Notes under the pieces: generated by a model
What the model was told of the DNA's origin: nothing
Database searches by the model: none
The model's input: the letters and a program-made list of their open reading frames with translations, nothing else
Program-made: the position numbers and the translations under genes
Source: Nitratireductor mangrovi
GTDB taxonomy: Bacteria; Pseudomonadota; Alphaproteobacteria; Rhizobiales; Rhizobiaceae
Direction of reading: 5' to 3'
DNA length: 64,000 bases
Assembly: GCF_007922615.2 (NCBI RefSeq)
Contig: NZ_CP042301.2
Location: 1,612,001 to 1,676,000 of the forward strand
In this document: in pieces, positions 44,759-55,405 of the stretch
Position numbering within the stretch: position 1 is the stretch's first letter
How the letters are laid out: the number at the start of each line of letters is the position of its first letter

Positions 44759-45883
<1,125 letters not shown>

Positions 45884-45938
45884 GCCTTGTCCTCCTGGCT
45901 CAATTTCTGTCTCGTCCGGCAACAGATCGGGTAACCGA

Positions 45939-46250
45939 TCAGCCCCGCCGCTCGAAAGTCTTTGTGTTCAGGCCCGTCCCGCGTGCGACACGCTGCCATT
46001 CCTCGACCCGCGCGTCCATAGGGCCGAGGCTGCAGCAAATCTCGAAGGCGTCAACCAGCGCTTCCGGCCCCTCAGCAACTACTATCGCGCTGTCGGCATC
46101 CGCCGTCTCGATCCAGCCGCGCAGGCTCAGCCGCTGGGCCCGTGCCAGAGCAAAGGCGACGAACGGTTCGCCCAGCCTTCCTTGAAAGCTGAGTTCGACC
46201 GCGCATTCGCGCGCGCCGCCGGTGCCGAGGTCGCCGGTCAGATAATCCAT
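45939..46250 (-). CDS. acylphosphatase-like protein lacking catalytic residues
   Basis: 103 residues. The stretch [53 protein letters not shown] follows the acylphosphatase fold (beta-alpha-beta), ending with [10 protein letters not shown] as in GPPxARVexV. But the GxVQGVGFR loop that carries the catalytic Arg is shortened to GRLGEPF and the catalytic Asn after GWV is Thr. So it is probably a non-catalytic binding relative. It sits between the transporter and frmA genes. Confidence 0.6.
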
Positions 46251-46309: not shown

Positions 46310-47383
46310 TTACTGAGGAAGCGAGCCGCTCAAGCCTTCGACAAGCCAGTTCATGCCGAAGATCGCCTCGTCCGGCAGATTGGTGCCTGCCTCGGCGCGC
46401 ACATTGCCGTCCTGGTCTTTGAGCGGACCGGCGAAGACATGCGTCTTGCCGCTGGCGATGTCGGTTTCGGCCTGCTTGATCTCGGCCATCTGCGCCTCGG
46501 TCAGGTCGTCGCTCCAGGCCGTCACCTTGACGGCGCCCGAGGCAAGCCCTCCGCGGAAGTCGGAGCCCTTGAAGTTGCCGTCGAGCTTGGCGCGGAAACT
46601 CTCGATGAAATAGTCGGTCCAGTCATTGGTCACCGAGGCAAGCACGCTGTTCGGCCCGTAAGAGCTCATGTCGGACGAGGTGTTCACGACATGGACGCCT
46701 TCGGCCTCGGCGATGTTGACCACCGACGGTGTGTCCTGATGCAGCGAGAACAGGACATCGGCGCCCTGCGAGATCAGGGCCCGCGCGGCCTCCTGCGCCT
46801 TCGGCGGATCGAACCAGGAGTTGAGCCAGATGATCTTGATATCGGCGTCGGGATTGACCTTGCGCACAGCAAGAGTGATGGCGTTGACCTCGGCCACGAC
46901 CTCGGGAATGGCGAATGCGGCGACCATGCCGATGACGTTCGATTTGGTCACCATGCCGGCGGCGAGCCCGCCGAGATAGAACCCTTCGTAGTTGCGCGCG
47001 GTAAAAGTCCCGAAATTGTCGGTCTGCTTGAAGCCGCTCGCATGGATGAAGGCCACGTCCGGCTGCTGGCGGGCGAGCCGCAGCCCGTCATTCATGTAGC
47101 CGAAGGAGCCGAGCATGACGAACTTGGCACCGTCGGTGACCATCTGGTTCATGATGCGCGCGGCGTCGGGGCCCTCCGGAACCGCTTCCACGACAACCGT
47201 CTCGACCTTGTCGCCGAATTCCTTCTCGATCGCCTCGCGACCGAGATCGAGTTGCTTGGCCCAACCGACATCGGCTGTCGGCGAGGGATAGATGAAGCCG
47301 GCCTTCAGCGGCTCGGCCTGTGCGGCGGCGGCCGACAGCGCGATCGCGGCGCCGGCGAGCCAGGAAATCAATCGGGTCTTCAT
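46310..47383 (-). CDS. BMP-family ABC transporter substrate-binding protein
   Basis: 357 residues. Signal peptide ends AAAAQA near 23. The mature protein has the BMP/PnrA-like pattern: AGFIYPSPTADVGWAKQLDLGREAIEKEFG and GGLAAGMVTKSNVIGMV. Members mostly bind purine nucleosides or related compounds in the periplasm; thiamine-like and other ligands are also known. First of three linked parts (binding protein, two permeases, double ATPase) that together form a Nup/Yuf-type importer. Confidence 0.87.
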   Translation of the reverse strand: MKTRLISWLAGAAIALSAAAAQAEPLKAGFIYPSPTADVGWAKQLDLGREAIEKEFGDKVETVVVEAVPEGPDAARIMNQMVTDGAKFVMLGSFGYMNDGLRLARQQPDVAFIHASGFKQTDNFGTFTARNYEGFYLGGLAAGMVTKSNVIGMVAAFAIPEVVAEVNAITLAVRKVNPDADIKIIWLNSWFDPPKAQEAARALISQGADVLFSLHQDTPSVVNIAEAEGVHVVNTSSDMSSYGPNSVLASVTNDWTDYFIESFRAKLDGNFKGSDFRGGLASGAVKVTAWSDDLTEAQMAEIKQAETDIASGKTHVFAGPLKDQDGNVRAEAGTNLPDEAIFGMNWLVEGLSGSLPQ

Positions 47384-47423: not shown

Positions 47424-48344
47424 CTATTGCGCCTCGCGGTAGACCTGCCCCAGCGAGACGGGTGCGTTGAGCCTGATGCGGCGCCCGTCCATGGAAAGCA
47501 GCGCGATGGCGACGATGGTTGCGATGTAGGGGATACTGGTCAGAAGCTGCGACGGCACGCCGATGCCGGTGCTCTGCACCAGCAGTTCGGCAATACTGGC
47601 GACGCCGAACAGGTAGGCGCCGATGGCGACGCGGCCGACCCGCCAGGTGCCGAACACGACCAGCGCCACCACGATCCAGCCACGCCCGGCGATCATGCCG
47701 TCGGACCATAGCGTGGTCGAGGCGACCGAGATGAAGGCGCCGGCAACACCGGCCATGAACCCGCCGGTGAGCACGGCCAGAAAGCGCACCTTGACCACGT
47801 CGTAGCCGATGGCGTGGGCGGATTGCGGCGACTCGCCGACCGCGCGAATAACGAGACCGAGCTTGGAATATCTGAACAGCCACCACAGGCCGACCGCCAT
47901 CAGCGGCGCCAGATAGACAAGGACGACATGGTTGAAGAGGCCGGGGCCGATGACCGGAATATCCGAAAGGAACGGGATCGGCAGCTTCGGCATCGGCGGC
48001 ACCGTCTTGCTTTCGTATGACTTGCCGATCAGCGCGGCGAGGCCGACGCCGAGGATGCCGACGGCCAGGCCCGAGGCGACCTGATTGCCGAGCGCGACCA
48101 GCACGACGGCGCCGAACAGCGCCGACAAAAGCATCGCCACCAGCCCGCCGGCGGCCATCGCCGACCAGTAGCTGCCGGTCTCCATGACGACGATGAAGCC
48201 GGTCACAGCGCCGAGCGCCATCATGCCCTCGATGCTGAGATTGAGCACGCCGGACTTCTCGGCGACAAGCTCGCCCATCGCAGCGATGAGCAGCGGCGTC
48301 GCCGCGAGCAGCGTTCCGGCCAGAACGAAGGTGATCGTCTGCAT
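47424..48344 (-). CDS. ABC transporter permease, NupQ/YufQ-like
   Basis: 306 residues, many hydrophobic segments (about 8). The N-terminal LAGTLLAATPLLIAAMGELVAEKSGVLNLSIEGMMALGA is the BPD_transp_2 signature for the nucleoside-type permease. Pairs with the upstream permease (stop and start overlap by 1 base). 40 nt upstream of the binding-protein gene. Confidence 0.88.
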   Translation of the reverse strand: MQTITFVLAGTLLAATPLLIAAMGELVAEKSGVLNLSIEGMMALGAVTGFIVVMETGSYWSAMAAGGLVAMLLSALFGAVVLVALGNQVASGLAVGILGVGLAALIGKSYESKTVPPMPKLPIPFLSDIPVIGPGLFNHVVLVYLAPLMAVGLWWLFRYSKLGLVIRAVGESPQSAHAIGYDVVKVRFLAVLTGGFMAGVAGAFISVASTTLWSDGMIAGRGWIVVALVVFGTWRVGRVAIGAYLFGVASIAELLVQSTGIGVPSQLLTSIPYIATIVAIALLSMDGRRIRLNAPVSLGQVYREAQ

Positions 48345-49438
48345 CAGGTGGCGACCTCGCTGGCTGGAAGGGCGGATTTCAGGCGCACGCGGTAGTCGAC
48401 GAAAAGCCGCGCCGCGATGTAGGTGACGAGAAGGATGCCCTGCAGCACCGTGTTGAGCGCATAGGGCACGCCGGCCGAGGTCTGGGCGATATCGCCGCCG
48501 ACCAGGATGACCGCCATGAAGAAGGCAGCGAACAGGATGCCGACAGGGTTCAGCCCGCCAAGAAAGGCGACGATGATGGCGGCAAAGCCGTAGCCGGGCG
48601 AGATCACGCGCTGCAGTTGGCCAAGGGGGCCCGCGACCTCGAACACGCCGGCAAGGCCAGCCGCCGCGCCGCCGATCAGCAGGCTGAGCCAGACCGCCTG
48701 GCTTTCGCTGAAGCCGGCATAGCGCGCCGCGCTAGGCGCGGTGCCGCCGACCTCGAGCTTGTAGCCGATCATGCTGCGGCGCACGAGTACCCAGGCAAGC
48801 GCCGTGGCAACGCCGGCGATGAACAGCGAGACATTGACGCGGGTGCCGGGGATCAGCACCGGCAGCATGGCGACGTCGGGAAACAGCGCCGATTGCGGGA
48901 AGTTGAAGCCGAACGGATCGCGCAATGGTCCCGCCACGAGATAATAGAGCAGTTGCAGCGCGACGCTGTTCAGCATCAGCGTGACCAGGATCTCGTTGGC
49001 GTTGAACCGCACTCGCAGGAGCGCGGCCAGCGCCGCCCATGCCATGCCGAACATGGCGCCGATCACGATCATCGCCGGCAGCATCAGGAGCGACTGGCTG
49101 TCGTTGAAATAGATCGGCAGGAGGCTGCCGCCGATGGCGCCGAGAATGAGCTGGCCCTCGGCGCCGATGTTCCAGATCTTGGCGCGGAAGCCGATTGCCA
49201 GGCCTTGCGCGATCAGGAGCAGCGGCGACATCTTGAGCAAGACCTCGCCGACATTGAAGGTTGTCGAGAGCGGCGCGACGTAGAGGTAATAGAGCGCCCG
49301 CAATGGCGAGACCCCGAGCATGCTCATCAGGACGAGGCCGCCGAGAATGGTGACGACGACGGCGGCAGCCGGGGCAATTAGTGGCGTGGCTGCGGAGCGA
49401 TGGACACGCGTTTCGACGGTCCAGGGCAAGCGTGTCAT
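48344..49438 (-). CDS. ABC transporter permease, NupP/YufP-like
   Basis: 364 residues, about 9-10 hydrophobic segments. LLIAQGLAIGFRAKIWNIGAEGQLILGAIGGS is the counterpart of the other permease's signature. Overlaps the ATPase gene by 4 bases and the second permease by 1 base, so the transporter is one coupled unit in the inner membrane. Confidence 0.88.
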   Translation of the reverse strand: MTRLPWTVETRVHRSAATPLIAPAAAVVVTILGGLVLMSMLGVSPLRALYYLYVAPLSTTFNVGEVLLKMSPLLLIAQGLAIGFRAKIWNIGAEGQLILGAIGGSLLPIYFNDSQSLLMLPAMIVIGAMFGMAWAALAALLRVRFNANEILVTLMLNSVALQLLYYLVAGPLRDPFGFNFPQSALFPDVAMLPVLIPGTRVNVSLFIAGVATALAWVLVRRSMIGYKLEVGGTAPSAARYAGFSESQAVWLSLLIGGAAAGLAGVFEVAGPLGQLQRVISPGYGFAAIIVAFLGGLNPVGILFAAFFMAVILVGGDIAQTSAGVPYALNTVLQGILLVTYIAARLFVDYRVRLKSALPASEVAT

Positions 49439-51015
49439 GCCGGTTCCACCTCCCTGGCCTGGTTTTCGTTGAGGAAGCCACCGGTCATGTAGCGGCCGAT
49501 GAGCGAAGTGGTGGCTTCACCGCGGGAAAGCGACGGCGACAGCCGGCCGCGGAACAGCACCAGGACCCGGTCGGCGATCTCCAGAAGCTCCTCGAGTTCG
49601 TCGCTGATGACCAGGATCGCCGCGCCCTGATCGCGCAGGTCGATCAGTTGCTGGCGGATCGAGGCGGCAGCGCCGACATCCACGCCCCAGGTCGGCTGCG
49701 AGGCGATCATGACCTTCGGTCCGAGCGCGATCTCGCGGGCGATGATGAATTTCTGCAGATTGCCGCCGGAAAGGCTGTGCGCCTCGGCGTCGGCGCCGGA
49801 ACAGCGCACGTCGAGCGCGCCGATGCATTTTTCCGCATAGGCGCGTGCCTGCCCGAAGGCGATCATCCCGCGCCGGACCATGCCGCGCCCGTGCGCGGTC
49901 AAGAGCACGTTGCGGGTCAGGCTCATTTCGGGCACAGCGCCGCGGCCGTGCCGCTCCTCCGGCACGAATGCGAGCCCGAGGCGACGACGCACGCCGGCGC
50001 CGGCATCACCGCAACTCTCGCCGCCGATCCTGATCCGGTCGCGATCATGGCGGGAAAGGATCGTCTCGCCCGACAGCACCGCGGCCAGCTCACGCTGGCC
50101 GTTGCCGGAGACGCCGGCAATGCCGACGATCTCGCCTGGATAGAGCGGCAGGTCGACGCCTTCGAGGCGGGTGCCGAAAGGGTCTTCAGGCTGATAGTCG
50201 AGATTGTGGATTTCCATCGCCGGATGCGCGCCGGGATGCGGCGCCGTGCGATGCGAACGCGGCAGATCATGTCCGATCATCAGCCGGGCCAGGGTCTCGT
50301 TGGTTTCAGCCGCCGGATCGACGGTCGCGACCACCTTGCCGGCGCGCATGACGGTGGCGCGGTGGCACAGAGACCGTATCTCCTCCAGCTTGTGGCTGAT
50401 GAAAAGCACCGCGCAGCCGCCGTCGGCGAGCTTGCGCAGCGTGTCGAACAGCGGCGGGATGCCGCTCGGTGGCAGCACCGAAGTCGGCTCGTCCATGATG
50501 ATGAGCCCGGGCTCCTGCAGCAGGCAGCGGATGATCTCGGCGCGCTGGCGCTGGCCGACCGAAAGCGAATGCACCAGCGCATGCGGATCGACCGGCAGGC
50601 CGAAGCGATCACCGATCTCGGCGATGCGGGGCGCGAGCCGCGACGCAGTCTCCGGCGTGGCGAGCGAGATGTTTTCGGCCACCGTCAGCGACTCGAGCAG
50701 GGAGAAATGCTGGAACACCATGCCAATGCCGAGGCTGCGCGCATGCGCGGGATTGCCGATCCTGACCGGCTCGCCGCGCCAGCGGATTTCACCGGCATCG
50801 GGCGCGAGCACGCCGTAGATCATCTTCATCAGCGTGCTCTTGCCGGCGCCGTTCTCGCCCAGAATGGCGTGGATTTCGCCCGGGCGCACGGCCAGCGACA
50901 CGTCGGAATTGGCGACGACCGTCGGGAAAGATTTGGTCACCCCGACCAGTTCAAGCAGCGGCCCGTTTGCCGCCGGCCGCCCGGCGCCACCGTCGGCGCC
51001 CACATCCGCCTTCAT
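49435..51015 (-). CDS. double ABC ATPase of a nucleoside-type importer (NupO/YufO-like)
   Basis: 526 residues with two ABC domains. Domain 1 (about 12-250) has an intact Walker A (GENGAGKS, near 56-63) and signature LSVGQRQRAEI. Domain 2 (about 260-510) has a degenerate Walker A (GVSGNGQREL), as in sugar and nucleoside-type double ATPases, and signature LSGGNLQKFI. Energises the two permeases. 63 nt downstream of the reductase gene in the same run. Confidence 0.88.
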   Translation of the reverse strand: MKADVGADGGAGRPAANGPLLELVGVTKSFPTVVANSDVSLAVRPGEIHAILGENGAGKSTLMKMIYGVLAPDAGEIRWRGEPVRIGNPAHARSLGIGMVFQHFSLLESLTVAENISLATPETASRLAPRIAEIGDRFGLPVDPHALVHSLSVGQRQRAEIIRCLLQEPGLIIMDEPTSVLPPSGIPPLFDTLRKLADGGCAVLFISHKLEEIRSLCHRATVMRAGKVVATVDPAAETNETLARLMIGHDLPRSHRTAPHPGAHPAMEIHNLDYQPEDPFGTRLEGVDLPLYPGEIVGIAGVSGNGQRELAAVLSGETILSRHDRDRIRIGGESCGDAGAGVRRRLGLAFVPEERHGRGAVPEMSLTRNVLLTAHGRGMVRRGMIAFGQARAYAEKCIGALDVRCSGADAEAHSLSGGNLQKFIIAREIALGPKVMIASQPTWGVDVGAAASIRQQLIDLRDQGAAILVISDELEELLEIADRVLVLFRGRLSPSLSRGEATTSLIGRYMTGGFLNENQAREVEPA

Positions 51016-51078: not shown

Positions 51079-52053
51079 CTAAAGGTCCAGCACCAGAAGT
51101 TTCGATCTGGCTCGCGACACGCAGGGTGTCATCAGCCGACCGCTCTCGTGCTCCTCGTCGGAAAGATAAAGGTCGTTGTGCTCGGGCTCGCCCTCGATCA
51201 CCTGGGTGAGGCAGGTGCCGCAGACGCCTTGTTCGCAACTCGTCTTGATCTCGACGCCGGCCTCACGCAACACGTCGATGATCGCCTTGTCGGGCGGCAC
51301 CAGAAGCTCGATGCCGCGCTTTGCGAGACGGACGACAAACTCGCCGGCATCCGGCGTGAGTTTCGGCGGAGTCGCGGAAAAATGCTCGAGCGCGACCGAG
51401 GCGGCCGGCCATCCGGCTTCCTCCGCCGACGAACGCACGACATCCATGAACGGATTGGGACCGCACAGATAGATGACGTCGTCGGCACCGGGACTGCTCA
51501 GAATCTCGGCCAGCACATCGTTGAGCAGCGGCGGCACGAGGCCGAAATGATAAAAGACGCGGTCGGCCCAACCGCTGCTGGTGATCAGCTGCTGAAAGGC
51601 CAGTTCCTGGTTGGAGCGGGCAAAATAGTGCAGCGCAAAGTCGGCGTCGCGCGCGGCGAGCGCCTGCGCCATGCTCAAGAGCGGGGTGACACCAATGCCG
51701 CCGGCGAGCAGCATGCTCCTGCCGCCATTGTCACGCAGCGAAAAATTGTTCTTCGGCCGGCTGATACGAAGCTTCGAGCCCTCGGTAAGCTGGCTGTGCA
51801 TGGCGTTGGAACCGCCGCGGCCGTTCTGCTCACGCTTGACGCCAAGCACGTAGCGGGAGCGGTCGGCCGGGTCGTTAACCAACGAATACTGCCTCTGCAG
51901 GCCGTTCATCGGATAGACATCTATATGCGCGCCGGCCTCGAATGGCGGCAGTGTGGCGCCGTTGGCGGCTTCCAGCACAAAGCTGCGGATTTCGGAGGTC
52001 TCGGCACGCACCTGGCGCACGATGACTTCCATTTCGCCGGCCGCGCTCGACAT
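51079..52053 (-). CDS. PDR/VanB-type oxidoreductase (FMN, NAD(P)H, 2Fe-2S)
   Basis: 324 residues. FMN motif RQYS at 54-57, NAD(P)H motif GGIGVTP at 118-124, CGPNPFM at 197-203, and a C-terminal plant-type 2Fe-2S ferredoxin with Cys273, Cys278, Cys281 and Cys311 (C-x4-C-x2-C-x29-C). It passes electrons from NAD(P)H to a Rieske oxygenase. The ATG at 52053 overlaps the GST-like stop (TGATG). By layout it corresponds to NdmD without its extra Rieske domain, which is encoded at 53586. Confidence 0.9.
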   Translation of the reverse strand: MSSAAGEMEVIVRQVRAETSEIRSFVLEAANGATLPPFEAGAHIDVYPMNGLQRQYSLVNDPADRSRYVLGVKREQNGRGGSNAMHSQLTEGSKLRISRPKNNFSLRDNGGRSMLLAGGIGVTPLLSMAQALAARDADFALHYFARSNQELAFQQLITSSGWADRVFYHFGLVPPLLNDVLAEILSSPGADDVIYLCGPNPFMDVVRSSAEEAGWPAASVALEHFSATPPKLTPDAGEFVVRLAKRGIELLVPPDKAIIDVLREAGVEIKTSCEQGVCGTCLTQVIEGEPEHNDLYLSDEEHESGRLMTPCVSRARSKLLVLDL

Positions 52054-52682
52054 CACACGAACTCCGCCACGCCCGACATCGCTTCGAAACGCGGCAGCCG
52101 CCGAAACTCGCGCATCCAGTTGCGCAGCGCCGGATAGTCCTCGTGGCCGATGCCGCCGTCGCCGGCAAGCGCGGTATAGGGAAAGCAGGCGATATCGGCG
52201 ACGGTCGGGTGGTCACCGACGATCCATTTCTTGTCGGCGATCTCGCGTCCGGTCAGATGGTCGTCGAGGATGCGAAACGCGGCATGCGCGTTGCGCCGCG
52301 CCGCCTCGACGTCGAGCCGGTAGCCCATGACGTCGTGCAGGCGTGCCGCCGAGGCGGCCATCAGCTCGCCGCCGGCGAACATCAGCCACATCATGACCGG
52401 GCCGAAAAGCGCGGGCTCACGCGGCAGCCATTGGCCGTCCTTGTCGTATTTGTTGGCGATGTGGCAGAGGATCGCCTGGGCGTCGCGTAGCCTGACGCCG
52501 TCATCGTCCAGCACCGGCAGCTGGCCGAGCGGATTGATCTCCAGGAAATCGGGGCTCTTGTGCGCGCGGCCGGGATAGAAGTCTATCTGCTCGCGCTCGT
52601 ATTCGATCTCGAGGAAATCGAGCAGGAGCCGCACCTTGTAGCAACTGCCGGACAGTCCGTAGTCGTAGAGCTTGATGGTCAT
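52053..52682 (-). CDS. glutathione S-transferase-family protein, NdmE-like by context
   Basis: 209 residues. Thioredoxin-like N-domain KLYDYGLSGSCYKVRLLLDFLE (Ser11/Ser13 region near the GSH thiol), cis-Pro loop GQLPVLDDDG near 53-62, then an all-helical C-domain with PTVADIACFPYTAL. In the methylxanthine N7-demethylase a GST-like protein (NdmE) is a structural partner of NdmC and NdmD; the position here, between the oxygenase and reductase genes, is the same. Whether it binds glutathione or only assembles the complex is unknown. Confidence 0.85.
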   Translation of the reverse strand: MTIKLYDYGLSGSCYKVRLLLDFLEIEYEREQIDFYPGRAHKSPDFLEINPLGQLPVLDDDGVRLRDAQAILCHIANKYDKDGQWLPREPALFGPVMMWLMFAGGELMAASAARLHDVMGYRLDVEAARRNAHAAFRILDDHLTGREIADKKWIVGDHPTVADIACFPYTALAGDGGIGHEDYPALRNWMREFRRLPRFEAMSGVAEFV

Positions 52683-52683
52683 C

Positions 52684-53559
52684 TCAGGCCGCCTGCTTTT
52701 CGTAGATGCCGAACTGCAGGTTCATGGCCTTCAGCCAGCGCCGGAAGGCGATCGAGCTGGCATCGGCGCGGGTCGGCAGTTCGATCGTCGGATCGAGCGG
52801 CAAGAGCGCGGGGCGTTGGTTTTCCAGAATGATGCGGTCCTGAAGGAAGATCGACTGCTGGAAGTCGATGATGCTCTCCAGCGCGCTGTCCGGGTCGACG
52901 ATCGCCATCGGCATGTAGGCCAGGCATTCCGTTTCGCCGACCGGCTGCACGAAGACGCAGATCGCGTCATTGCGGGTCGGGTCACCGAAGACGTTCTTGT
53001 AGAGCATGACGCTGAAGGGCGACATGACACGGTAGACGTAGTCGGTGATCTGGCCGCCGGTCGACGCCTTCGATGCGGCCGGTTGGAAGAACTTGCAGTC
53101 CAGCGCCCAGATCTCGTCGACGTCCTTGCGATGCTCGGTCTTGTAAGCCAGCACCTCGGTGCGTTCCGGCGCCCCCAGTACGTTGGTGTGGACGAAGGAA
53201 AAATGCGCCATGTCGAGGAAGTTCTCGATGATGCGGTACGGGCTCGTGCGCACGCCGACGCTGCCGCAACCGGTGATGCGTCTGTCGGGCTCATCGAACT
53301 CCGAGATTTCGGGCAGCGGGCGGCTCGGCTCGCCAAGCGTGGTGAAGATGCAGGTGTAGCGTTGCTGTGATGGCAGCCGACGGCCGGTCGAGCCGTCGGC
53401 GCCGATCTCGTGAATGTCGTATGCCGTCTCGCCGGTGCGCGTGACGCGGATGTCCTGTCCGAAGACCACCGTGTCGAAGCTCGCACCGGCGACGACCTGG
53501 CCGTGCCAGCCGCAGGCGACCCACTCGTTGAGGACCACAGGATCCGTCGTTACCGTCAT
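52684..53559 (-). CDS. Rieske-less ring-hydroxylating oxygenase catalytic subunit (NdmC-like)
   Basis: 291 residues, only the C-terminal mononuclear-iron part of an aromatic ring-hydroxylating oxygenase alpha subunit. Iron motif at 112-124 (ENFLDMAHFSFVH) gives Asp116, His119 and His124; the likely third carboxylate ligand is Asp241 in IFLQDRIILENQ. A normal alpha subunit of 340-450 residues begins with a Rieske domain; here that is missing and a separate Rieske gene lies 26 nt upstream. GGGAGAGAAG precedes the ATG. NdmC of Pseudomonas methylxanthine degradation has the same reduced layout. VanA-type O- or N-demethylation are the plausible reactions. Confidence 0.85.
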   Translation of the reverse strand: MTVTTDPVVLNEWVACGWHGQVVAGASFDTVVFGQDIRVTRTGETAYDIHEIGADGSTGRRLPSQQRYTCIFTTLGEPSRPLPEISEFDEPDRRITGCGSVGVRTSPYRIIENFLDMAHFSFVHTNVLGAPERTEVLAYKTEHRKDVDEIWALDCKFFQPAASKASTGGQITDYVYRVMSPFSVMLYKNVFGDPTRNDAICVFVQPVGETECLAYMPMAIVDPDSALESIIDFQQSIFLQDRIILENQRPALLPLDPTIELPTRADASSIAFRRWLKAMNLQFGIYEKQAA

Positions 53560-53585
53560 CTTCTCTCTCCCTTGCAGCCCTGTCG

Positions 53586-54266
53586 TCACCGCGCCTCCAG
53601 CGCGCCGCGCAAACGTTCCATCTTCCTGGCGAGGGCGGCCCGGGCATCCGGCGTTTCGGCCGCCTTGCCCCTGGCCACCACATGCAATCCGCATTTTTCG
53701 GCGCTCACCGGCTGGATCGCGACGAGCAGCGTCAGGTTGGGCCCGGCCTCGATGGTGGCCGCGCCATGCCCGTTCATGCTGATGCTGGCGTCCGCCATGC
53801 CGCAGTCGGCCTCCGGCAAGCGCTCTGTGACGGCGGCAGCATCCCGGTTCACGTAGATACTGCGCACCGGCGCCCAACCATCCGCCGGCCCGAGTTCGGG
53901 CGGTTCGGACCGTGTATCCTTGAAAAGGTTGGTCCACAGGATGCCGTAGCGCTCGGCCGACGGGTAGACGTTGGCGCAGATCGTCTTGGGAGGCGTCAGT
54001 TCCGGATGCGCCGGGATCAAGGCGCACTGGCCGCCGGCCTCGTAGCCCCAGCCATGGTAGATACAGCGCAGCATGTTGCCGCGCACGAAGCCAAAGCTGA
54101 GCCGCATGCCGCGGTGCGGGCAGCGATCTTCCCAGACGTTGGCGGCGCCGTTTTCGCCGCGCCAGATCGCCAGTGGCTGATCCTCGACGATGGCGGGATT
54201 GGAGGAGCCGGGCTGTACCTGATGATCGAGCCCCACGGCGATCCAGCGGTCGCGAAATTCTGCCAC
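53586..54266 (-). CDS. stand-alone Rieske 2Fe-2S protein
   Basis: 226 residues. Rieske ligands Cys49-Pro-His51 and Cys68-x2-His71 (C-x-H-x16-C-x2-H), with the surrounding WEDRCPHRGMRLSFGFVRGNML of ring-hydroxylating oxygenases rather than bc1 complexes. Residues about 120-226 have no obvious iron site. This is probably the electron-delivering domain that the next gene's catalytic subunit lacks. First gene of the minus-strand run; divergent LysR gene begins 164 nt away. Confidence 0.87.
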   Translation of the reverse strand: MAEFRDRWIAVGLDHQVQPGSSNPAIVEDQPLAIWRGENGAANVWEDRCPHRGMRLSFGFVRGNMLRCIYHGWGYEAGGQCALIPAHPELTPPKTICANVYPSAERYGILWTNLFKDTRSEPPELGPADGWAPVRSIYVNRDAAAVTERLPEADCGMADASISMNGHGAATIEAGPNLTLLVAIQPVSAEKCGLHVVARGKAAETPDARAALARKMERLRGALEAR

Positions 54267-54430: not shown

Positions 54431-55405
54431 ATGCAGATCGATGACGTCCTGGTTTTCCTCCAGATTTCCTCGACAGGGTCGCTGTCGGCGGCGGCCCGAG
54501 CCGCGGCCAAGCCCAAGGCAACGATCAGCCATCAGCTGCGCCGCCTCGAGGACGAGCTCGGCACGCCGCTCTTCATCCGCTCCACCAACCGGCTGGTGCT
54601 GAACGACGCGGGCAGAAGCTTTCTCGATCACGCCAAGAACATCCGTCGCGCCTGCGAGCGCGGCGTCGACGCAGCCCGCAGGAGCCGCAACATCACCGTC
54701 GGCACCCTGCGCGTGGCCTCCTCGGGCGAATTCTCATCCAACCTCGTCGGGCCGCTGGTGCTGCATTTCGCCCGCCACCATCCGCAACTTCGACTTGAGG
54801 TGATGGTATTGCGCGGCGACGCTCTGATTTCTTCGCGCGACAGCCTCGACTGCATCCTCTATCTCGGCGAGCCGCCGATGCCGCAGGTGGCGGAATTGAC
54901 GGCGCGCCTGCTCGGCCGCTTCGCCTTCGGGCTCTACGCCAGCCCCGGCTATCTGGCCCGGAACGGCCATCCCCAAGCGCCAAGTGAGTTGCGCGGCCAC
55001 GACCTGATCGGCTTCCACAATGGCGAGACCACCACCTTGTGGGAACTGGCCGACGGCGAGCACGAGTTCAGCCTGCAGCCGAGCACCAGGTTCCTGACCA
55101 ATGACTACTGGGTCTTGAAGCTCGCGGCGATCCACAATCACGGTATCGCGTTCATGCCGACCTTCTTCGCGGCACTCGAGGTCGAGCACGGGCTGCTGGA
55201 ACCGGTTCTGCCGAAATGGCGCTCGACCGAGATCCCGATGTACGCGCTCTTCGCCAGCCACCGGCTTGCCAACCCGAACCTGCGCACGCTGATCGATTCG
55301 GTGTCGCAGAATTTCAGCACCATTTTCGACTACGACTATTATGCCTGCCACAATCCGGCGCTCGACCGCGGCGCGGTGGCTGAGCGTCGGCTCCCGCGGC
55401 TTTGA
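54431..55405 (+). CDS. LysR-family transcriptional regulator
   Basis: 324 residues. Winged helix at about 1-60 (QIDDVLVFLQISSTGSLSAAARAAAKPKATISHQLRRLEDELGTPLF) and a LysR effector domain from about 90. Divergent from the Rieske gene, so it most likely controls the oxygenase/transporter run in response to the imported substrate. The following photolyase operon is on the same strand but separated by 81 nt. Confidence 0.88.
   Translation: MQIDDVLVFLQISSTGSLSAAARAAAKPKATISHQLRRLEDELGTPLFIRSTNRLVLNDAGRSFLDHAKNIRRACERGVDAARRSRNITVGTLRVASSGEFSSNLVGPLVLHFARHHPQLRLEVMVLRGDALISSRDSLDCILYLGEPPMPQVAELTARLLGRFAFGLYASPGYLARNGHPQAPSELRGHDLIGFHNGETTTLWELADGEHEFSLQPSTRFLTNDYWVLKLAAIHNHGIAFMPTFFAALEVEHGLLEPVLPKWRSTEIPMYALFASHRLANPNLRTLIDSVSQNFSTIFDYDYYACHNPALDRGAVAERRLPRL

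Follow-up and report, generated by a model that had tools for sequence, protein, structure and literature searches.

Gene organization of the cluster

The window analysed in this study is a stretch of 64,000 nucleotides of DNA from Nitratireductor mangrovi, and a compact operon on its minus strand (51079-54266) encodes, in this order, a Rieske protein, the catalytic subunit of an oxygenase, a glutathione S-transferase (GST)-like protein and a reductase. All four genes that a first-pass annotation had claimed are present at these positions and on this strand; the first three genes are separated by 26 bp and 1 bp, and the GST and reductase genes overlap by 4 bp. A related enzyme, NdmCDE, is known from caffeine breakdown. 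Judged from its sequence, the cluster in the window is an unfused NdmCDE-type system. It consists of the following genes:

53586..54266, minus strand: Rieske subunit, 226 amino acids (aa); GTG start; C49, H51, C68, H71 and Tyr70; Pfam Rieske
52684..53559, minus strand: NdmC-like catalytic subunit, 291 aa; ATG start inside a longer mechanical open reading frame (ORF); D116, H119, H124 and D241
52053..52682, minus strand: NdmE-like GST-fold protein, 209 aa; GST_N/GST_C; homology to GSTs beside fusions
51079..52056, minus strand: reductase of the phthalate dioxygenase reductase (PDR)/VanB type, 325 aa, with flavin, NAD and plant-type 2Fe-2S domains; Pfam, homology and tree

None of the listed NCBIfam models was exceeded over its cut-off by any of the four proteins (for the reductase, among 25 of 27 models).

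Two metal sites on two proteins

The best Pfam family of the catalytic subunit is VanA_C (3.5e-22), and no Rieske match was obtained. The iron site D116/H119/H124, which had already been proposed, is invariant in 71 of 71 aligned rows, the protein itself being one of them, and so is D241, a third ligand that had not been named before and that aligns with Asp280 of SxtT. The motif D-x2-H-x4-H occurs in 119 of the 120 catalytic proteins listed (the exception, P0108, is a fragment), and one of the 120 (P0109) also carries a Rieske motif. Conversely, the Rieske protein (Pfam Rieske, 2.4e-19) possesses the predicted cluster ligands C49/H51/C68/H71, which are invariant in 76 of 76 aligned rows, again including its own. 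This cluster motif is present in 118 of 120 Rieske proteins listed; P0170 and P0202 start after its first half. Because the motifs hold in nearly all of the 120 listed proteins of either subunit, the split ligand pattern is not due to chance. In a standard alpha subunit both metal sites lie on one chain, whereas here the cluster ligands are found only on the 226-aa protein and the iron ligands only on the 291-aa protein.

Structure models show both proteins as probable descendants of complete alpha subunits. In the model of the Rieske protein, the alignment with an alpha subunit covers 222 of 226 residues, and the protein is depicted as a complete but shrunken alpha subunit with a catalytic domain devoid of iron ligands, i.e. 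a putatively dead one. This assignment rests on the fold match of the model because profile comparison alone fails to detect the domain. The free Rieske domain of the first-pass annotation is thus a separate gene, as had been stated, but not a mere domain, since the model shows it as an entire alpha subunit whose catalytic half is dead. It also differs from Rieske-type ferredoxins, which consist of a single small domain of about 110 aa, in having 226 aa, two domains and an alpha-subunit fold. Within the dead catalytic domain, H195 and R220 show no variation across all 76 aligned rows. Similarly, the claim that the catalytic subunit has only the iron site holds for the metal sites but not for the domains, as the models show a gutted Rieske domain (about residues 1-75) retained in front of an intact iron domain. 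The two proteins would accordingly be complementary degenerate alpha subunits, each of which keeps one metal site.

In SxtT (PMC7293229), iron is held by His164, His169 and Asp280, and the bridge between cluster and iron is formed by Asp161 and Tyr76, which meet where two subunits adjoin. Counted in the alignments, the equivalents are His119, His124 and Asp241 together with Asp116 on the catalytic subunit, and Tyr70 on the Rieske subunit. Bridge and iron residues are invariant in 71 of 71 rows (catalytic) and 76 of 76 rows (Rieske). As far as can be read from these alignments, the SxtT-type bridge is kept, with its two ends, Tyr70 and Asp116, on different proteins.

Two single entries are mentioned separately. 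The natural fusion P0109 (496 aa, Rieske and VanA_C) was considered as support for a pairing of the two proteins and was rejected; it is a single metagenome sequence, and its C-terminal end departs from the family. In another locus (L086 10001-10876), the iron-only subunit is publicly annotated as a (2Fe-2S)-binding protein, and its relatives lack the cluster motif. The split form explains public entries of this kind.

Relationship to NdmCDE and other oxygenases

NdmCDE is the methylxanthine N7-demethylase of Pseudomonas putida CBB5 (PMC4408171, PMC10380055) and was presented as the first instance in which a Rieske domain is split from the oxygenase and fused to the reductase (PMC4408171). Like NdmC, the catalytic subunit in the window has the iron site without a Rieske cluster motif, and it aligns collinearly with the authentic NdmC protein from P. 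putida (M1EY73, listed as P0260; 39% identity over 282 aa, E 1.7e-68). The comparisons for NdmD and NdmE were made to NdmD-type fusions and the GSTs encoded with them, not to NdmD and NdmE of CBB5 over the full length. With the fusion of Sinorhizobium meliloti, residues 32-224 of the Rieske protein align to residues 33-239 (E 9e-28) and the reductase to residues 291-588 (46%, E 4e-89); with the Klebsiella fusion, residues 30-195 of the Rieske protein align to 30-206 and residues 2-325 of the reductase to 262-585. The reductase was correctly described as a flavin mononucleotide (FMN)/2Fe-2S enzyme: Fer2 and the NAD-binding domain exceed the Pfam cut-offs, the flavin domain lies just below, and FMN is deduced from homology to PDR (2pia, E 1.4e-65). 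Its C-terminus matches the solved ferredoxin domain of NdmD. The GST-like protein, confirmed by Pfam matches to GST_N and GST_C, shares 46% and 59% identity with the GSTs whose genes follow the fusions of Klebsiella and S. meliloti, respectively; an NdmE-type partner is therefore encoded in the operon, as judged from the GSTs of these two fused clusters and not from CBB5 NdmE itself. Because of these homologies to NdmC, to both parts of NdmD-type fusions and to the GST beside them, the proposal that the same machine occurs here in a third arrangement is upheld.

The arrangement nevertheless differs from NdmCDE. The Rieske protein (53586-54266), although it corresponds by homology to the N-terminal portion of NdmD-type proteins, and the reductase (51079-52056), although of the same lineage as the fusions, are separate genes, and the reductase has no extra Rieske domain. 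The gene order is Rieske-catalytic-GST-reductase, and a BMP importer takes the place of the purine permease. The catalytic subunit belongs to a sister clade of that of NdmC: in a tree of 34 rows, in which the fused or unfused status is known for some rows and was not checked for every P row, one branch (support 100/99) parts NdmC and the rows known from fused clusters from those known from unfused clusters. In the reductase tree, the window-type reductases (10 rows, support 100*) are neighbours of the reductase halves of the fusions, with an unstarred joint support of 86. The reductase near the unfused cluster of Elstera (L064) groups with reductases from outside such clusters.

With the fused NdmCDE-like clusters of rhizobia and of the same genome (L084, L109) the cluster shares the four modules and the importer, but in those clusters Rieske protein and reductase are joined and usually two tandem catalytic genes are present (21/23). 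The saxitoxin hydroxylases SxtT and GxtA and the demethylases NdmA and NdmB have the same fold, and the iron triad and inter-subunit bridge residues of SxtT recur here, but those enzymes carry both metal sites on one chain. Two-component VanAB/PDR systems have the same type of reductase and the VanA_C domain; their oxygenase is not spread over two proteins and a GST partner is lacking. Assignment to HpxD does not apply, as HpxD-annotated matches are 29-31% identical over about 75% of the query and the catalytic subunit lacks a Rieske domain. An open-literature search, within the accessible portions of the texts, returned no description of the unfused form or of a dead alpha subunit; the primary NdmCDE paper of 2013 lies outside this search and may mention the unfused form.

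Distribution and gene order

Among 297 genomes sampled from the family to which the window belongs, 79 gave a match to the catalytic subunit. Six with weak matches (best E 2.1e-13 to 9.7e-4) were left out, and the remaining 73 genomes with 117 strong catalytic genes were examined. A Rieske-type match, either a Rieske-only gene or an NdmD-type fusion, was found in all of them (73/73), and hence an intact Rieske-containing alpha subunit as the actual partner, which the first-pass annotation had named as an objection, is not supported. Stand-alone Rieske genes (54 in 53 genomes) outnumber fused ones (23 in 23 genomes), and three genomes, including that of N. mangrovi, contain both kinds. The unfused form is commoner than the fused form in the sampled genomes and no curiosity. 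A catalytic gene lies within 20 kb of each of the 77 Rieske genes, stand-alone or fused; 17 of the 54 stand-alone genes sit between two catalytic genes at a distance of 6-10 kb to either side, and 21 of the 23 fused genes have two catalytic genes within about 2 kb. As control, 80 of the 218 catalytic-negative genomes yielded a single Rieske match, a 456-aa frame, and none of this type.

Gene order was scored by 3' ends in 109 loci, some of which overlap, so that a few genes are counted twice. The order Rieske-catalytic-GST (stand-alone) occurred in 24 loci; 54 showed Rieske-GST, their catalytic gene being located elsewhere; four were fused, seven unclear (including two frame-broken fusions), and in 20, of which 14 are short stretches from the genome sample, no Rieske gene was seen. 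In most loci of relatives, the GST gene adjoins the Rieske gene or comes after the catalytic gene. The family extends to Acetobacteraceae, Methylobacteriaceae and Rhodococcus and to plasmids of Rhizobium, Sinorhizobium, Klebsiella and Pseudomonas, with fused forms in records of Klebsiella, P. fulva and S. meliloti. NdmCDE-like systems were previously reported for 18 further organisms besides the closest three, predominantly Sinorhizobium and Mesorhizobium (PMC4408171).

Of the 54 stand-alone cases, five (G000, G214, G221, G179 and G067), all of the window type, have a PDR-type reductase gene within the cluster itself; outside the genome sample, eight of 80 loci of relatives hold such a gene. 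In two further genomes (G084, G224), a reductase of 36-37% identity is encoded about 22 kb from the Rieske gene, and in 22 of 73 genomes no such reductase was found at E 1e-30. Because so few stand-alone clusters hold a reductase gene, most of these systems must use an electron donor encoded elsewhere.

Importer and formaldehyde dehydrogenase genes

The operon is flanked by the following genes; the counts refer to the 80 loci of relatives, whose ORF clusters were named from one representative each:

54431..55405, plus strand: LysR-type regulator, divergent; same ORF cluster (20) in 8/80 loci
49435..51015, minus strand: ATP-binding cassette (ABC) ATPase of a BMP-type importer; same ORF cluster in 56/80 loci
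48344..49438, minus strand: ABC permease (BPD_transp_2)
47424..48344, minus strand: ABC permease (BPD_transp_2)
46310..47383, minus strand: BMP/PnrA-like solute-binding protein; same ORF cluster in 50/80 loci
44759..45922, minus strand: S-(hydroxymethyl)glutathione dehydrogenase; likely start at the ATG at 45883; TIGR02818 607.6 bits (cut-off 543.95)

Between the genes of the binding protein and of the formaldehyde dehydrogenase lies a 103-aa ORF (45939-46250) with no Pfam match at 1e-5; in Paracoccus alcaliphilus, a gene of similar size at this place is annotated as acylphosphatase.

The genome contains a second, fused NdmCDE-like cluster (L109 10521-17378; C1:2744520-2751377), which comprises two tandem catalytic genes, a 596-aa Rieske-reductase fusion, a GST, a formaldehyde dehydrogenase and a cytosine-deaminase-like protein. 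Exactly two genes of this genome exceed the TIGR02818 cut-off, one at the end of the cluster in the window and the other after the GST of the fused cluster (C1:2749015). Because both demethylase-like clusters hold the only two such genes of the genome, oxidative N-demethylation is favoured. The two coding sequences (window 44759-45885; L109 15011-16137) are 100% identical over 1127 bp, and their flanks are unlike; this pair is apparently a recent copy or the result of gene conversion between the two clusters. S-formylglutathione hydrolase is encoded by a single copy over the cut-off, which is near neither cluster.

In the genome sample, a formaldehyde dehydrogenase gene lies within 12 kb of nine of the 23 fused clusters. 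A plasmid locus of Cupriavidus (L083) has one as well. The ndm cluster of CBB5 also contains frmA and frmB (PMC4408171). With about 0.5% expected per cluster, a binomial calculation for the sample puts the linkage of the fused clusters far above chance (3e-15) and makes that of the window type notable (3e-4), although related genomes are not independent and the expectation derives from a rounded genome size. The linkage supports oxidative demethylation for the fused and the window-type clusters only. A scan of ten flanking ORFs of relatives with NCBIfam yielded no further one-carbon link for the window type.

Proposed function and alternative explanations

Homology, architecture, conserved ligands, gene order, co-occurrence and linkage to formaldehyde genes form the basis of our interpretation. 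With a probability of roughly three in four, the system in the window is an unfused NdmCDE-type oxygenase acting as an N-demethylase, whose substrate would most likely be a purine-like heterocycle taken up by the adjacent BMP-type importer. From these data we infer the complex, the order of electron transfer, N-demethylation and the purine substrate. Compared with the first-pass annotation, the evolutionary and mechanistic reading is stronger; the machine is supported, and we infer the substrate.

Electrons would pass from NADH to the flavin and the plant-type 2Fe-2S cluster within the reductase and from there to the Rieske cluster of the 226-aa subunit. They would then cross the subunit interface, leaving the Rieske subunit via Tyr70 and entering the catalytic subunit via Asp116, and reach the iron at His119/His124/Asp241, where O2 would be activated. 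The methyl group would be hydroxylated and released as formaldehyde, which the neighbouring glutathione-dependent formaldehyde dehydrogenase would oxidize. The Rieske and catalytic proteins presumably pair via the normal alpha-alpha interface, and the model of a dead alpha subunit predicts a contact from Tyr70 to Asp116 across it. By analogy with the proposal for NdmE, the GST-like protein might hold the assembly together; NdmC is reported to be insoluble when its partners are missing. NdmCDE contains three of each subunit and has a size of about 360 kDa (PMC10380055); this stoichiometry of 3:3:3 would fit an alpha3-alpha'3 arrangement of NdmC and the dead alpha half of NdmD. For the NdmCDE complex, the structure was described as unsolved (PMC13237722), and the unfused form offers separate, smaller proteins to probe how the Rieske cluster of NdmCDE reaches the iron of NdmC.

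Methylated purine is the best guess for the substrate. At least one ORF of the importer clusters occurs in 57 of the 80 loci of relatives, and 56 loci contain one or more ORFs from a set of six deaminase/amidohydrolase clusters, of which two have no assigned substrate. Representatives of guanine deaminase, 8-oxoguanine deaminase and adenosine deaminase pass the NCBIfam cut-offs, and those resembling adenine deaminase and xanthine dehydrogenase remain below. The residues exchanged in the NdmA 'QL' mutant correspond in the alignment to Q234 and F238, a mixed NdmB/NdmA pair, and no substrate was assigned from the pocket.

Several results weigh against this interpretation. The solved structures nearest to the catalytic subunit are the hydroxylases SxtT and GxtA, which precede NdmA and NdmB. 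A formaldehyde gene lies within 12 kb of only two of the 54 stand-alone clusters (two of the five with an adjacent reductase, none of the other 49), in one of the 80 loci of relatives (L003) and in one, the same, of the eight window-type loci from named records (L001-L006, L008 and L086). The sequence-profile test (hhalign) for the dead catalytic domain gave a probability of 1.3% and an E of 0.039. Finally, the cluster in the window contains no purine deaminase, and the link to purines stems from the importer class and from relatives.

This missing deaminase would also suit an enzyme that removes an N- or O-methyl group from a compound other than a purine, with importer and GST being generic; this is the alternative with the best prospects, but an unlikely one. 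It would be consistent with VanA_C as the best Pfam family and with the importer proteins of relatives, which match NCBIfam components of a 'putative B6' transporter below the cut-off. On the other hand, importer or deaminase/amidohydrolase ORFs (with the limitation for two of the six clusters given above) occur in 75 of the 80 loci, and Paracoccus alcaliphilus shows the gene order of the window, followed by acylphosphatase and 8-oxoguanine deaminase, of which the deaminase lies two genes downstream of the importer.

It is less likely still that the same split machine hydroxylates an unmethylated purine in a manner independent of molybdenum cofactor, like HpxD, and feeds the deaminases and xanthine dehydrogenase of the neighbourhood. 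The purine deaminases clustered with relatives, the hydroxylases among the closest structures, the 49 of 49 sampled reductase-less stand-alone clusters without a formaldehyde gene and the HpxD-annotated proteins among the distant matches all agree with such a function. However, the N-demethylase NdmC is far closer than HpxD, and formaldehyde dehydrogenase genes accompany both the cluster in the window and the fused cluster of the same genome.

There is very little chance that the 226-aa protein is an ordinary Rieske ferredoxin serving a complete alpha subunit elsewhere and that the 291-aa protein is unrelated. Other Rieske proteins do exist in the genome (8 matches), but size and shape of the 226-aa protein are wrong for a ferredoxin, a Rieske gene or its fused form accompanies catalytic genes within 20 kb in 77 of 77 cases, and the 80 catalytic-negative genomes of the control lack this type. 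That one alpha-subunit gene was broken into two reading frames, as the adjacency of both genes on one strand might suggest, is refuted by the alignments, since each protein covers the whole alpha-subunit fold and the ligands are conserved in 76 and 71 aligned rows and nearly all listed proteins.

Some loci of relatives show additional genes. Clusters of rhizobia and Bradyrhizobium (L028, L032, L037-L040, L043, L050, L059 and similar) add varying sets drawn from four enzymes, namely a two-subunit thiamine pyrophosphate enzyme, a GMC oxidoreductase, a xanthine-dehydrogenase-like protein with a length of about 1000 aa, and an aldehyde dehydrogenase; these sets may represent a longer heterocycle pathway with a LumK/LumL-like decarboxylase. 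The first three of these enzymes, present in some rhizobial clusters, prompted a comparison with lumichrome-type catabolism (PMC12746152), which was rejected for the window, as no such ORF cluster occurs in the stretch 36001-64000. In three other loci (L016, L017 and L021; ORF clusters 24, 54, 56 and 72), a GcvT/sarcosine-oxidase-like protein, whose representative is below all listed cut-offs, is encoded near the catalytic gene, together with further shared genes without NCBIfam match at 1e-40.

Origin of the split form

We consider it rather probable that NdmCDE and its unfused relatives form a distinct class of Rieske oxygenases, which arose by duplication of an alpha-subunit gene and loss of opposite metal sites in the copies. 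The Rieske-only copy would serve as a shared electron hub; through the classical interface it would pair with a single iron-only copy or with several that differ in specificity. NdmD would be a later fusion of hub and reductase, the published picture of a Rieske domain moved to the reductase a derived case, and most unfused members would use a donor yet to be found. The unfused form also suggests how electron delivery could be decoupled from substrate choice in Rieske oxygenases, with one Rieske subunit serving several catalytic ones, a point of relevance for finding new N-demethylases.

That the unfused form came first and the fusion later is argued from architecture, not from a tree. In the tree rooted with alpha subunits, the outgroup branches were far too long, the unfused rows L085 and L088 (Rhizobium etli/R. 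phaseoli) fell among the fused ones, and the NdmC-type rows L082_c1 and L087_c1 were wrongly labelled 'out'. In the 34-row catalytic tree, the R. etli row is on the unfused side. A single origin of the fused form was not rejected by the approximately unbiased test (p 0.394). In the Rieske tree, the fused parts form one group of 24 rows (support 94), including two rows scored as unfused, which the note on long branches identifies as the frame-broken L083 and L087. The NdmD-type genes of these two, on the Cupriavidus plasmid (L083 10030-12630) and on P. putida pPp1290 (L087 10850-12605), are annotated as partly overlapping pieces and are probably frame-broken.

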